Shown here: positions 53,370 to 59,927 of the stretch, piece after piece
How positions within the stretch are numbered: the stretch's first letter is position 1
How the letters are laid out: each line of letters starts with the position of its first letter
DNA from: Halorussus sp. MSC15.2
Lineage (GTDB): Archaea > Halobacteriota > Halobacteria > Halobacteriales > Haladaptataceae
DNA: 64,000 bases
NCBI RefSeq assembly: GCF_010747475.1
Contig: NZ_VSLZ01000001.1
Coordinates: 1,178,001-1,242,000, forward strand
Direction: 5' to 3'
Translations under genes and position numbers: made by a program
Notes under the pieces: generated by a model
Seen by the model: only the letters and a program-made list of their open reading frames with translations
Told to the model about the DNA's origin: nothing
Database searches by the model: none

Positions 53370-53469
53370 CCGGAAAGCCCCCGTTTCCCGCTCTTAACCC
53401 CCATTCTACGGTCGTAACCGGCGAGTGTCCGCTCGTTACGTGCTCCCAACTACGTGAACGGCCGATTCG

Positions 53470-53476
53470 CTATAAG
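53470..53476 (+). promoter_or_regulatory. TATA-like box of the 53501 gene
   Basis: CTATAAG, about 28 bases before the ATG at 53501, supports that leaderless start. Confidence 0.5.
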
Positions 53477-53500
53477 ACGCGACGTGATGCAGGTGCGGGC

Positions 53501-54185
53501 ATGGCCGAGGACGGGAACTCACTACGACGACGCGACGTTCTCAGGGCCGGCGCGGCCGCGGGGGTCGTCGGACTCGGATGGGTCGCGAGCGGCGTCTCCG
53601 CGCAGGACCAGCGCACCCGGAACGCCTACAGTTACAGCCTCCAGAGCGGTGACCTGTTCCGGGTGTGGCTCCGACCGCAGGACTCGGGGGGGAAACGCCC
53701 GGACCGAGCCTATCCCGGCGGACTGCACTGGCGGTCAGTCCAGAGAGTACCAGATATTCATCGTCCGGGCGTACAGGGACGGAATCGACCTCGGATACGA
53801 GGGGCTGTTCGTGCCTTCGCAGGCAGTATCGAACCGGACGACCGAAACGACGACCACGACGACAGAGACGACTACGACGGAGACCACTGAGGAGACCGAG
53901 ACCACCACGACGACCGAGGCCGCGCTTCAAGAGGAGACGACGACGGCGAACGAAACGGGGACACCTGCAAACGAGACGACGACGCCCGACGACGAAACGA
54001 CGGCGAACGAGACGACCGTCCAAACGGAGACGACTGCTGCTGAAACGACTACGCAGGGTGAGTCCGGACTCCCCAGTATACAGGTCGGAAAGTGGTACCG
54101 CGTCACCTCCTCGATACGCTGCGATTCCCTGTTCCAACTGTCGCTCGAACCCGCCGAACCGCGCGACGGCGGTACTGGTGGCTGA
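53501..54185 (+). pseudogene. Tat-exported Thr-rich protein, frameshifted at a 7-G tract
   Basis: It starts MAEDGNSLRRRDVLRAGAAA with a twin-arginine motif and a VSAQDQ cleavage-like site. The mature part is QRTRNAYSYSLQSGDLFRVW, and then seven Gs at 53686-53692. Read as seven, the frame leaves the protein (KRPDRAYPGGL); read as six, it continues GNARTEPIPADCTGGQSREY, then a Thr/Glu-rich linker (TTETTTTTTETTTTETT) and the end GKWYRVTSSIRCDSLFQLSL. Corrected length is about 228 residues. The homopolymer makes this the best candidate for slippage, either in sequencing or in the cell. Function is unknown. Confidence 0.75.
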
Positions 54186-54538
54186 GTACGGCTTCGAGGA
54201 TTCACGCCGCACTCTGCTGTCGCTGTGGGCTACGCGTCCGTCCGACCGTCTCTCGTCCAGTACTCTCGGACCGGCCGGTTCGGGTACTTCCGGACCGGTG
54301 TTCTCTGCCGCCGAAATCAGGACTTTCCGCGAGGTAATCCCGACTGGTCTGCGGTAACGCGGGTTCCGCGTGTTCAAGCCGCGATGATTCGGGTAAACGG
54401 ACGACCCGTACAAGACGCGACCTGCGCACAGAACCGTCGAAATCCACACCTCGCGAGTTCGGGACGACAATCACCGAGTGGACGGCGGTGCCGTCGAGAA
54501 AGAAGCGTTCAGAAGGCGGCGCTCCGTTCTCGGGTCGG
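54186..54538. other. Intergenic region, nothing recognised
   Basis: About 350 bases between the ends of convergent genes. I see no credible open frame, repeat or palindrome. Composition is close to that of the neighbours. Confidence 0.4.
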
Positions 54539-55120
54539 CTACCGCGACTGGACGCTCGCGGGCAGCCACGCCCCGAGCAGTCCGGCGGTTCCGGTCGCCA
54601 GCGCGAACACCCAGACGGCCGTCAGTGCGAGCGAGGCGGCGACGACCGCCGTCTGTACCCACGTCGGCGGTTCCGAGAGTAATGCGTCGGTGACGACGAC
54701 CATCCCGGCGTAACTCGCGGCGAACGGGAGCGCGAGGACGAGACCGAACGGCGCGAGGACGAGGTCGAGCCACCCCGGAACCGTCGTGACGAGCGTCGCG
54801 AGCAGGTAGGTCCCGGTCGCGGCCCCGAAGACGCCGAGGACCGCGAGCGTTCGGTCGGTCGGCCGGAACGCGAGTCTCGCGTACGGGTGGTGGCTCGCAA
54901 GCGCCGACGCGTCCGCGAACGCCAGAACGACGACTGCGGCGAGGTAGGCTCCGGCGAGTCCGACGAGAGCGTAGCCAGCGTGGGCCGCGTCGAGACACGG
55001 ACGGGCCGACGGACACCCCATCGCGGCGTCCCGATAGACGAAGTACAGCGTCGGGACGGCGACCGCGAGGAGCGGGAGGACGAGACTCCGACGCGGGCGG
55101 AGGGCGGCGTACCAGTTCAT
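54539..55120 (-). CDS. Multi-spanning membrane protein of unknown family
   Basis: A 193-residue protein with about five transmembrane segments: SLVLPLLAVAVPTLYFVYRD (about 12-32), GYALVGLAGAYLAAVVVLAF (about 49-68), TLAVLGVFGAATGTYLLATL (about 90-110), LVLAPFGLVLALPFAASYAG, and TAVVAASLALTAVWVFALAT (about 155-178). Two cysteines in AAMGCPSARPCLDAA face a loop. I recognise no family. It starts MNWYAALRPRR. Confidence 0.65.
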   Translation of the reverse strand: MNWYAALRPRRSLVLPLLAVAVPTLYFVYRDAAMGCPSARPCLDAAHAGYALVGLAGAYLAAVVVLAFADASALASHHPYARLAFRPTDRTLAVLGVFGAATGTYLLATLVTTVPGWLDLVLAPFGLVLALPFAASYAGMVVVTDALLSEPPTWVQTAVVAASLALTAVWVFALATGTAGLLGAWLPASVQSR

Positions 55121-55162
55121 AGCGTATCGTTGTGGGTGTGGAGAAATAAATCTGGGTCGCGG

Positions 55163-56062
55163 TCAGTACTCGACGAGTTTCGTCGCTGAGCCGTCGTGGT
55201 CGAGTTGGGAGCCGTTGTTCATGTCGTAGTAGTCGTCGTAGCCGTACCAGTTCGACGCGCCGTCGAAGACGTCCTCGATGGCTGCTTCGGCGTCGTCGAA
55301 CGACGTGGCCTCGTGGGGGACCGAACTGTCGACGTGGGCCGACCCGGAGACGTAGCCCTCGAACTCCCACATCTTGAGATGGTTTCGGCCGAGGAAGCCG
55401 AAGGTACTCGTCGCGACGGACTTGTCCTGCTGCTCGAACTGGTTCGTCGCGCTGTTGTACGCGTAACGGTTGTACTGGACCACGTTGTCGGTCCACCCGT
55501 TGCTCGTCAGCACTCCGGCGACGTCGGCCGCGGACTGTTCGGAGATGACGTTCATCGGGGCCGCCGTCTCGTATCCACCGTCGACCGCCTCGTACTCCCA
55601 GACGCCGTAGGGATGGTCCTCCTCGTCGGGGTCGCGGGCCTGAACGCTGACTCCGCCGGTCTTCCGGTAGTGGGCCTTCCACTCGTCCTCCTTCGCGTAG
55701 TAGGTGTCCCACGGTCGCTTCTCGGTCCGCGTGTCTCGGAGCGGCAGGTCGTCCTGTTTGGCCTTCGGCCGGTCGAACGTCTCGGTCTTAGTCAGCACCG
55801 GCGGGGTGATGCCGTAGCGCCGCCGGAGGTCGTCGCTTATCTTCCGTTTCGTGACGGTCACGCTGTCGGGTCGAATCTTGGTCTTGACGATTTCACGACC
55901 GGTCACGCGGAATTTTTCGGGGACCGCCGGACCGGACGCCGCCGTGCCGGACTCCGACAGCAGGGGGAGACCGAGAGCGCCGAGACCCAGCGAGACGATG
56001 CCGTTCATGAACTGTCGTCGAGTACCGTCGTTCGAGGGACGGTCGGGGGAGTCGTCTGTCAT
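55163..56062 (-). CDS. Tat-exported protein of unknown function
   Basis: A 299-residue protein. The N-terminus has TRRQFMNGIVSLGLGALGLP, a twin-arginine signal without a lipobox, cleaved near SGTAASG. The mature part has SVTVTKRKISDDLRRRYGIT, RDPDEEDHPYGVWEYEAVDG, and the pair TSTFGFLGRNHLKMWEFEGY and VSGSAHVDSSVPHEATSFDD. It ends TKLVEY. The gene is intact. No known motif is recognised. The A/T-rich upstream region fits its promoter. Confidence 0.7.
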   Translation of the reverse strand: MTDDSPDRPSNDGTRRQFMNGIVSLGLGALGLPLLSESGTAASGPAVPEKFRVTGREIVKTKIRPDSVTVTKRKISDDLRRRYGITPPVLTKTETFDRPKAKQDDLPLRDTRTEKRPWDTYYAKEDEWKAHYRKTGGVSVQARDPDEEDHPYGVWEYEAVDGGYETAAPMNVISEQSAADVAGVLTSNGWTDNVVQYNRYAYNSATNQFEQQDKSVATSTFGFLGRNHLKMWEFEGYVSGSAHVDSSVPHEATSFDDAEAAIEDVFDGASNWYGYDDYYDMNNGSQLDHDGSATKLVEY

Positions 56063-56369: not shown

Positions 56370-57626
56370 TCAACTACTCGTCTCGGTCGTCGTCCACCAC
56401 TCGACGAGTTCGGCGGTTCGCTCGCGCTCCTGTTCCATCTGGTGGCGCGGCGACTCGCGCTCCTTGTCGTCGAGGGCGTTGCGCTCGACGATGTCGGCGG
56501 CGTTCTTGAAGGCGGCCTGCGCACCGTACTCCTCGCCGGTCCCGGAGAACAACCCTTCGTCGGTGAACAGTCGTATCGTGCATCGGACGAACGGCGTCCC
56601 CCGATGCTGCTCCTTGTGCTTGTGGAAGCGGACGTTCGCTTCGAGGATGTCCATGTCCTTGTACTTCCCGTCGATTTCGTCGATTCGCTCGACTATCTCC
56701 TCGCGCGAGAGGACGTCCAGCAGGTCCACGCCGAACACCTGCACGTCGGAGCGCTGCTCTTGGTCGCCGGTCCACGTCAGCGCCCGGAGCAGGTCGGTAA
56801 TCGTCACGATGCCCGCGGGCGATTCGAACTCCTCCGGGACGACGATGAGCGACGAGTAGCCGTGGTCCTGCATCTTCGCGAACGCCTCGTCGAGTCCGGC
56901 GTCGAGCGGAATCGTGGCCGCGGGCGAGTTCATCACGTCGCGGGCGGGCAGGTTGGTCATCGTCGCCTCCAACCCCGACCGCTCGCCCCAACCGCCGTGG
57001 GTGCGACCCTGACTCTTCGAGACGCCGCCGCCGAACGAGTCGGTGGCGTTGTTGTTGCCGCCCTGTTCCTGTGTCATCTTCCGAGTCGTGAAGTCCACGA
57101 GGTCGTAGAGGCTTATCATCCCGACCGCGTCGGTGCCGTCGATGACCGGGACGCGGGTGAACTTGTGTGTCCGAATCGTGTGGATGACCTTCCCGAGGAC
57201 GGTGTCGGGTTCGACCGACACCACGTCCTCGGTGTACACGTCCGACACGTCGAGGGCACCGAGGTTGTCCTGCACCATCTCCAGCAGGTCCTTCGCGTTG
57301 ACGACGCCCCGCAGGACGCCGTCGTCGTCGAGAACCGGGAGCATCTTGACCTGCCCCTCGACCATCAACCGCGCGGTCTCGCGCACGTCCTCGTCTCTGG
57401 CCACCGTCGGCGGGTGGCGCACCACCGACCGGACCTTCGCCTCGGGGTCGTGGTGCGAACTCACGAGGTCCTTGCGGGTGACGATGCCCTCGAACTTGTC
57501 GCTCTCGCCCCGGACGACGATGGCCTCCAACGTCTGGTCACCGTCGAAGATGCCCCGAATCTTCCCCAGTCGGGTGCCCGGGTTCACGTCCACGTACTCG
57601 GTCGTAACGGCGTCGGCGATATCCAT
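56370..57626 (-). CDS. Four-CBS protein with C-terminal ribosome-hibernation-like domain
   Basis: A 418-residue protein starting MDIADAVTTEYVDVNPGTRL. CBS domains lie at about 1-55, 65-125, 130-185 and 220-290, with motifs such as VMNSPAATIPLDAGLDEAFA. A Gly/Asn-rich linker (QEQGGNNNATDSFGGGVSKS) separates the first three from the fourth. Residues of about 295-400 (VFGVDLLDVLSREEIVERID, ILEANVRFHKHKEQHRG, VRCTIRLFTDEGLFSGTGEE, AFKNAADIVERNALD) resemble the HPF/RaiA ribosome hibernation fold. CBS modules sense adenine nucleotides, so the protein may link energy state to ribosomes. The ribosome link is inference. Confidence 0.82.
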   Translation of the reverse strand: MDIADAVTTEYVDVNPGTRLGKIRGIFDGDQTLEAIVVRGESDKFEGIVTRKDLVSSHHDPEAKVRSVVRHPPTVARDEDVRETARLMVEGQVKMLPVLDDDGVLRGVVNAKDLLEMVQDNLGALDVSDVYTEDVVSVEPDTVLGKVIHTIRTHKFTRVPVIDGTDAVGMISLYDLVDFTTRKMTQEQGGNNNATDSFGGGVSKSQGRTHGGWGERSGLEATMTNLPARDVMNSPAATIPLDAGLDEAFAKMQDHGYSSLIVVPEEFESPAGIVTITDLLRALTWTGDQEQRSDVQVFGVDLLDVLSREEIVERIDEIDGKYKDMDILEANVRFHKHKEQHRGTPFVRCTIRLFTDEGLFSGTGEEYGAQAAFKNAADIVERNALDDKERESPRHQMEQERERTAELVEWWTTTETSS

Positions 57627-57710: not shown

Positions 57711-59927
57711 TCACTCCAGCGTCGGGCGAATCTTTTCGACCGCGGCGTCGAAGTGCTTCCGCTGAATCCGAATCTCGTCGGCGTTCTGGTCGGCCTGCTC
57801 GACGCCCCACGCCTCGGCCGCCTCTCGAATCGCTCGCATCGAGGCGTCCCTGACGACCGACTCCAAGTCCGCGCCCGTGTACCCCTCCAACTCCGCGGCC
57901 AACTCGTCCAGACTCACGTCGTCACCGAGGGGTTTGTCGTCGGCGTGGACCGACAGAATCGCCCGGCGGCCCTCCTCGTCGGGCGCGGGCACCTCGATGT
58001 GCTCTTCGAGTCGCCCGGGTCGCAGGAGCGCGCGGTCGAGTGCGTCCCGTCGGTTAGTCGCGGCCAGCACTATCAGGTTCGGATTCTCGGCGAGACCGTC
58101 CATCTCGGTCAGGAGTTGGGAGACCACGCGCTCGGACACCTCCGCGCCGCCGCCCATCCCGGAGCCGCGTTCGCCCGCGATGGAGTCTATCTCGTCGAAG
58201 AACACGATGGCCGGGGCGGCCTGCCGAGCGCGGTCGAATATCTCCCGGACCGTCTTCTCGGACTCGCCGACGTAGCGGTCGAGCAGTTCCGGCCCGTCCA
58301 CGTGGATGAAGTTCACGTCGCTCTCGCCCGCCAGCGCCCGCGCGAGCAGGGTCTTGCCGGTCCCCGGCGGGCCGTAGAGCAGGATGCCCGAGGGCGGTTC
58401 GGTGTTGGTCTTGTCGAAGAGGTTGCGGTACGCCAGCGGCCACTCGACCGCCTCGGTCAGCGTCTGTTTCGCCTCCTCCAGATTCCCGACCGCGTCGAAC
58501 CCGATTTCGGGCGACTCGGCGACGAACTCGCGCATCGCCGAGGGGTCCACCGAGGCCATCGCGGTCTCGAAGTCCTCGCGGGTGACCTCCACCTCCATCA
58601 GCGCCGCGTCGTCGGCCCCGGCGTCGCGTGCCCGCCGGAGCGCGGCCATCGCCGCCTCGGTCGAGAGCGCGTGGAGGTCCGCGCCGACGAACCCGTGCGT
58701 GGAGGCCGCGAGTCGGTCCACGTCCACGTCGTCGGCCAGCGGCATCCCGCGGGTGTGGACGTCCAGAATCTCGCGGCGTCCGGCCTCGCCGGGCACGCCG
58801 ATTTCGATTTCGCGGTCGAACCGACCGCCCCGCCGGAGCGCGGGGTCGATGGAGTCCACCCGGTTGGTCGCGCCGATGACCACGACCTGTCCGCGAGATT
58901 CGAGACCGTCCATCAGCGAGAGCAACTGGGCGACCACGCGGTTCTCCACGTCGCTCTCCTCGTCGCGTTCGCCCGCGATGGCGTCTATCTCGTCGAAGAA
59001 CACGATGGTCGGGGCCTCGTCGCGGGCGGTCTCGAACACCTCGCGCAGACGCTCTTCGCTCTCGCCCTTGTACTTCGACATAATCTCCGGTCCCGACACC
59101 GTGACGAAGTGGGCGTCCACCTCGTTGGCGACCGCCTTGGCTATCATCGTCTTGCCGGTTCCCGGCGGGCCGTAGAGCAGGACGCCCTTCGGCGGGTCGA
59201 TGCCGAGTCGCCGGAAGAGTTGGGGGTTCGACAGCGGGAGTTCGACCATCTCCCGGACGCGCTCCAGTTCGTCTTCGAGACCGCCGATGTCCTCGTAGGT
59301 CGCGCCCGTGGGTTCCGCGGGGGTGCCGTCTCCCTCGCCGCCGACGGGAATCGAGACGCCGGACTCCGACCCAGCGCGACTCCCTCCGGTCGCACCCGAC
59401 TCGGCCCCGCCCGACCCGGACGCCATCGCCACCGTCACGTCGGTGTCGTCGGTCACGCGGACCACCCCGTCGGGGTCGGTCGCGCCGACGCGGAACGTTC
59501 CGGCGTCGCCGAGGCGTTCGAGGCGAACCCGCTCGCCCTCCTTGAGCGGCCGGTCCTGCAGGGTGCGCTTGAGCGCCGATTCGAGCGTGTCGCGGTCGTC
59601 CTCGTCGAACTGAGCGGTCGGCGCGAACGTCACCGACTCGGCGTCGGCGACCGAAATCTGGCGCACCGTCACCGCGTCGCCGATGCTCACTCCGGCGTTG
59701 GCCCGCGTCTCGCCGTCTATCCGGACGGTCCCGGCCTGCGCGTCGCTCCCGGCGGGCCACACCTTGACGACGGTATCGCGCTCGCCCTCCACGACCACTG
59801 TGTCGCCGCTCAGGACGCCCAACGCCGACCGGGCCGACTCGGGGACGCGAGCGATACCCCGGCCGGCGTCGCGCTTCTCCGCGCCCTGTACGGTTAGCTC
59901 GACTGCGGCGGAACCCTTCGCGTTCAT
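57711..59927 (-). CDS. Cdc48/VAT-type AAA+ ATPase
   Basis: A 738-residue double-ring ATPase of the Cdc48/p97 family that unfolds proteins for the archaeal proteasome. The N-domain starts MNAKGSAAVELTVQGAEKRD and has a double-psi barrel (GIARVPESARSALGVLSGDT). D1 has GPPGTGKTMIAKAVANE and FFDEIDAIAGERDEE; D2 has GPPGTGKTLLARALAGE and FFDEIDSIAGERGSG. It ends FDAAVEKIRPTLE and lacks the common C-terminal HbYX motif at that end. The gene is intact and divergent from the small gene at 60063. Confidence 0.93.
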   Translation of the reverse strand: MNAKGSAAVELTVQGAEKRDAGRGIARVPESARSALGVLSGDTVVVEGERDTVVKVWPAGSDAQAGTVRIDGETRANAGVSIGDAVTVRQISVADAESVTFAPTAQFDEDDRDTLESALKRTLQDRPLKEGERVRLERLGDAGTFRVGATDPDGVVRVTDDTDVTVAMASGSGGAESGATGGSRAGSESGVSIPVGGEGDGTPAEPTGATYEDIGGLEDELERVREMVELPLSNPQLFRRLGIDPPKGVLLYGPPGTGKTMIAKAVANEVDAHFVTVSGPEIMSKYKGESEERLREVFETARDEAPTIVFFDEIDAIAGERDEESDVENRVVAQLLSLMDGLESRGQVVVIGATNRVDSIDPALRRGGRFDREIEIGVPGEAGRREILDVHTRGMPLADDVDVDRLAASTHGFVGADLHALSTEAAMAALRRARDAGADDAALMEVEVTREDFETAMASVDPSAMREFVAESPEIGFDAVGNLEEAKQTLTEAVEWPLAYRNLFDKTNTEPPSGILLYGPPGTGKTLLARALAGESDVNFIHVDGPELLDRYVGESEKTVREIFDRARQAAPAIVFFDEIDSIAGERGSGMGGGAEVSERVVSQLLTEMDGLAENPNLIVLAATNRRDALDRALLRPGRLEEHIEVPAPDEEGRRAILSVHADDKPLGDDVSLDELAAELEGYTGADLESVVRDASMRAIREAAEAWGVEQADQNADEIRIQRKHFDAAVEKIRPTLE

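Follow-up and report, generated by a model that had tools for sequence, protein, structure and literature searches.

A minus-strand gene at positions 56370..57626 of the window (the whole stretch of DNA analysed, 64,000 nucleotides) very probably encodes a ribosome hibernation factor of the HibA family, and one of an accessory, long-loop type, additional to a core HibA gene in the same genome. We propose that under stress or in stationary phase the C-terminal HPF/RaiA domain of the protein would settle in the 30S mRNA/tRNA channel, while its module of four CBS domains would swing to the 50S subunit, where the long CBS3-CBS4 loop would plug the peptidyl-transferase centre (PTC). The idle 70S ribosome would thereby stay in one piece, inactive and protected until the cell grows again. 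This accessory HibA would coexist in one cell with the nearly universal core HibA. The features concerned are as follows.

56370..57626, minus strand: accessory (long-loop) HibA-type gene, by its HibA architecture (nearest solved chain 9l96_a)
57087..57626, minus strand: CBS1-CBS3, residues about 1-180 (Pfam CBS, four stretches in the protein; AF2 model)
56955..57086, minus strand: CBS3-CBS4 long loop, residues about 181-224, putative equivalent of the HibA PTC loop, with motif GG...GGWGER (loop alignment; pLDDT)
56772..56954, minus strand: CBS4, residues about 225-285, with the adenylate-type motif residues T275, T277 and D278 (best Pfam stretch 228-283)
56463..56753, minus strand: HPF/RaiA-like domain, residues about 292-388 (profile, Pfam matches of homologues, predicted fold, structural matches)
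56373..56462, minus strand: C-terminal tail, residues 389-418, with a WW pair (alignment)
57711..59927, minus strand: CDC48-type AAA ATPase, upstream neighbour 84 bp from the HibA gene, for which we claim no working part

The open reading frame (418 a.a., ATG start) is a real gene. Its Halorussus orthologues are 69-98% identical and keep the full-length frame, and it is under purifying selection: pairwise dN/dS values are 0.16-0.31 for the whole gene and 0.07-0.27 for the HPF domain. Pfam finds four CBS domains in the protein (E = 5.4e-38). When this protein is searched by itself, Pfam and NCBIfam return CBS-type matches only and miss the HPF domain. The full-length AF2 model has a mean pLDDT of 75, with the loop at residues 181-221 below 50.

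Several lines of evidence assign the C-terminal region (about residues 292-390) to the HPF/RaiA fold. The Pfam family Ribosomal_S30AE has no match to the window copy; of the homologous C-terminal domains, 29 of 39 match it at E<=1 (best 6e-5), as do 20 of the 39 full-length homologues; in the three homologues examined singly the score is below the curated cut-off of 23.7 bits. The protein has the predicted HPF fold but falls outside bacterial HPF at the Pfam cut-off. A profile of the C-terminal domain picks up HibA of P. abyssi at 7e-16 and the H. mediterranei protein of 9l96 at 6e-46, and a sequence search of the solved structures with the C-terminal 126 residues alone suffices to find the 9l96 and 9sr9 chains. 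Predicted alone (pLDDT 84.6), the domain has the order strand-helix-strand-strand-strand-helix (strand 7-11, helix 21-34, strands 40-54, 57-68 and 72-80, helix 82-99). The first 28 Foldseek matches are HPF/RaiA/pY proteins from bacteria and chloroplasts, and after structural realignment the first 30 rows are all HPF/RaiA/pY, with Z of 8.3-12.4 and alignments that span almost all of the domain, its first strand included (in the top row, Vibrio cholerae HPF, 89 residues align with an rmsd of 2.4 at Z 12.4). Double-stranded RNA-binding domains share part of this fold and appear lower in the same ranking, mostly at Z 7-8. It is scarcely credible, however, that the similarity is to them and not to HPF: they span just about 70 residues, they are outranked by the 30 HPF/RaiA/pY rows, and sequence profiles tie the domain to HibA and S30AE. 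The initial annotation had described four CBS domains followed by an HPF/RaiA-like region at residues 295-400; the four Pfam stretches and the searches above bear it out, its limits are about right, and the structure prediction that it had made decisive for its reading returns the HPF fold.

HibA was described by Madru and colleagues in April 2026, by cryo-EM of P. abyssi ribosomes, as a protein of four CBS domains and an HPF/RaiA domain that is found in 47% of archaeal genomes (PMC13324472). Its HPF domain is placed in the 30S channel and its CBS module adopts one of three positions on the 50S subunit, where the demonstrated role of the module is the filling of tRNA sites; in one of the three placements the CBS3-CBS4 loop reaches the peptidyl-transferase centre (PMC13324472). 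HibA binds ribosomes, inhibits translation in vitro and preserves 70S particles, and Thermococcus barophilus cells that lack hibA resume growth later and have a smaller 70S pool (PMC13324472).

The window protein is related to two HibA-type proteins of solved structure. In a sequence search of the solved structures 9l96_a is matched over residues 1-391 (E = 1e-94) and 9sr9_H over both halves (E = 2e-34; two stretches at 5e-18 and 1e-13). We take the 9sr9 chain to be P. abyssi HibA because of its length of 392 residues (the length of HibA in PMC13324472), its place in ribosome entries of the date of that paper and its name. The four-CBS N-terminal module, the kinship of both halves and a long CBS3-CBS4 loop are all found in the window protein, which, judged from its sequence, is a member of the HibA family, with an architecture and a proposed role that are already known. 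The CBS part also resembles the CBS modules of AMPK gamma and MJ1225 in a structural search. Another archaeal protein, Dri, carries two CBS modules. The window protein has one module and an HPF domain, and thus differs from the Dri arrangement of two full modules with the HPF domain absent.

There are two groups of HibA paralogues in haloarchaea. A second full-length HibA copy is found in the same genome (L002, G000:C1:785081-786226; 380-382 a.a., about 40% identical to the window protein). With L002 as the query, this core type is matched in 143 of 145 haloarchaeal genomes, nearly always by close orthologues, so that core copies are nearly universal, and they are usually single. Two genomes have no core match: G129, which has an accessory copy, and G131, which has neither type. 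Full-length accessory copies distinct from the core gene are found in at least 45 of the 145 genomes among the matches listed for the window protein, and in 13 of 18 Halorussus genomes. HibA-type genes are also found on plasmids (51 places in 41 plasmid records): about 40 megaplasmid records are of the accessory type, and a single plasmid record, from Natronorubrum bangense, best matches the core type (65% to L002). We rejected carriage of accessory HibA by phages, as HibA has no match among 50,697 phage records.

The phylogenetic tree reflects the same division: all 20 core rows form one clade (support 100/98), and 9l96 groups with the accessory rows. Support for the accessory group is 94/99 without the single intermediate protein L023 but weak (53/20) with it. 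L023 is the sole HibA copy of its genome (G021) and lies between the two groups, with an accessory-like loop and a core-like end; it is possibly an early branch. A search of the main text of the HibA paper turned up neither paralogues in haloarchaea nor copies on plasmids (PMC13324472), and the core/accessory split is apparently described here for the first time.

The two groups differ in alignment in the CBS3-CBS4 loop. Measured between fixed columns, 41 accessory copies have loops of 36-46 residues and 30 core copies have loops of 21-22, and the motif GG...GGxGxR is present in all 41 accessory copies and in none of the 30 core copies. (A DNA pattern for this motif, run on the 145 genomes, mixed genuine and unrelated matches, and the counts given here rest on other searches.) The accessory loop matches the folded domains in conservation (0.53 versus 0.52-0.57), and it is predicted to be disordered when free (pLDDT < 50). 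Most simply, it would take on an ordered form once bound to the ribosome, as the loop of HibA does, and by analogy with HibA, whose loop is shorter, it probably reaches the catalytic centre of the ribosome. The ends of the proteins differ as well: most accessory proteins have an aromatic C-terminal tail (WW or GWL), whereas the core end is LLRKLGEL.

The genomic contexts of accessory genes, identified by protein searches of the neighbour genes, vary. A CDC48-type ATPase gene lies within 2.5 kb of the accessory gene in eight out of nine window-type Halorussus loci (L010 being counted for its near-identical genome), but in just one out of 20 accessory loci outside the Halorussus window type, and we therefore rejected a fixed operon and claim no working link with CDC48. 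A different CDC48 gene is within about 8 kb of core HibA in 18 of 42 haloarchaeal genomes. Stress or low-oxygen genes are found near some accessory copies (e.g. L164 on an H. halophilus plasmid, L162 on pHME505, and L165), and the set is not constant; genes seen near some copies include those for class II ribonucleotide reductase, universal stress protein, nitroreductase, a PPOX-family protein, Dps and trehalose synthesis. An accessory HibA gene on H. halophilus plasmid unnamed2 (L174) is co-located with genes for a diadenylate cyclase, a universal stress protein and a CDC48 ATPase within about 9 kb. The neighbours of 13 plasmid loci are mixed, too much so for a plasmid stress/anoxia gene island around accessory HibA, which we rejected. 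In the window itself, the region adjoining the HibA gene (53454-56062) contains fast-changing genes: a Thr/Glu-rich low-complexity open reading frame and genes for two minus-strand proteins (299 and 193 a.a.) that have no Pfam match and are missing from some close relatives.

It is likely that adenylate binding is kept in the window family, because T275, T277 and D278 (CBS4) and D175 (CBS3) are invariant in 39 haloarchaeal homologues. These residues belong to the interface where ATP was seen, and the CBS module of P. abyssi HibA binds AMP at one site per module with a Kd of 12 uM (ADP 65 uM, ATP 113 uM; PMC13324472). Both observations would suit an energy switch, in which ribosome binding is switched by AMP or ATP held in the CBS module. 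We consider such a switch rather unlikely, as AMP and ATP hardly altered the conformations of HibA, its distribution on the ribosome or its ribosome binding in vitro, and a nucleotide was not seen in native HibA-ribosome complexes (PMC13324472). The initial annotation had read the protein as a CBS-HPF fusion that couples energy charge to ribosome storage. Its fusion and its hibernation role are supported by membership in the HibA family, for which the role has been demonstrated (PMC13324472); the coupling to energy charge is unsupported as stated, the effect of AMP or ATP on P. abyssi HibA not being appreciable (PMC13324472). The initial annotation also missed that the protein is the accessory, second copy of its genome.

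As a core HibA is already encoded in the organism, the accessory copy could have diverged in its role. In the extreme case it would have left hibernation, and the same fold would regulate another partner, for example in DNA replication/repair or protein acetylation. HibA of Pyrococcus and HVO_2384 of Haloferax have been found with RadA/RadB, GINS and a Sir2 deacylase, HVO_2384 being a partner of both RadA and RadB (PMC3820547), and HVO_2384, a tandem-CBS protein of Haloferax volcanii with a hibernation-factor domain, has also been found with inactive Pat2 (PMC12607858). These partners, however, belong to other HibA proteins and not to the accessory type (HVO_2384 is probably of the core type). 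In addition, the HPF domain, which is the 30S-binding part, keeps its invariant residues under the purifying selection noted above, and a long-loop relative is present in four PDB entries, in which it is known by the chain name CBS domain-containing protein alone. We thus regard a departure from hibernation as quite improbable. For accessory HibA as a hibernation factor, the relatives suggest that it would bind ribosomes, insert its loop in the catalytic centre and act in dormancy. A bolder proposal, which we put forward tentatively, is that haloarchaea have two plugs in parallel: a HibA for housekeeping, and a long-loop HibA, frequent on plasmids and spread by horizontal transfer, whose larger, conserved loop would make a distinct contact with the catalytic centre or the exit tunnel and which would serve a separate stress programme traded between species by replicons.

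A family of hibernation factors described only in 2026 is confirmed here from raw sequence in haloarchaea, a group outside the experiments of the paper that described it (PMC13324472). The core/accessory split and the loop are a variation on a known theme and worth a test. The split poses a testable question: for what reason do many haloarchaea retain at least two ribosome plugs, and often more, that differ in their loops and of which one type is often borne on megaplasmids? Haloferax mediterranei, which carries accessory copies on two plasmids, is among the genetically tractable haloarchaea, and a relative of the accessory paralogue (9l96) already has deposited structures.

Compared with known systems, the window protein shares the fold of its C-terminal domain with bacterial HPF/RaiA/pY proteins, which lack a CBS module and have a sequence identity of about 10-20%. 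Its CBS part is structurally alike to those of the archaeal ribosome-bound CBS-module proteins Dri (Pyrobaculum) and Sri (Methanosarcina) (PDB 9e7f and 9znf); we know of no HPF/RaiA domain in Dri or Sri proteins. With HibA of P. abyssi (Pab0961; PDB 9sr9 series) it shares four CBS domains followed by HPF/RaiA, an alignment over both halves and the CBS3-CBS4 loop; it differs in that its own loop is Gly-rich, conserved and much longer than that of core copies, in its aromatic tail, and in that its genome also has a core HibA. That core HibA (L002) has the same domain order and HPF domain, but is about 380 a.a. long, with a loop of 21-22 residues, the LLRKLGEL end and about 40% identity. The closest counterpart of solved structure is WP_004060604 (PDB 9l96, 9l98, 9l9c and 9l9v), encoded on plasmid pHME505 of H. 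mediterranei and identical to 9l96 over the 384 residues visible in the alignment. It belongs to the same accessory long-loop group, with 384 residues aligned end to end and the same loop motif, but is about 43% identical and of another subclade, and it is plasmid-borne, whereas in a near relative the window-type gene lies on the main chromosome.
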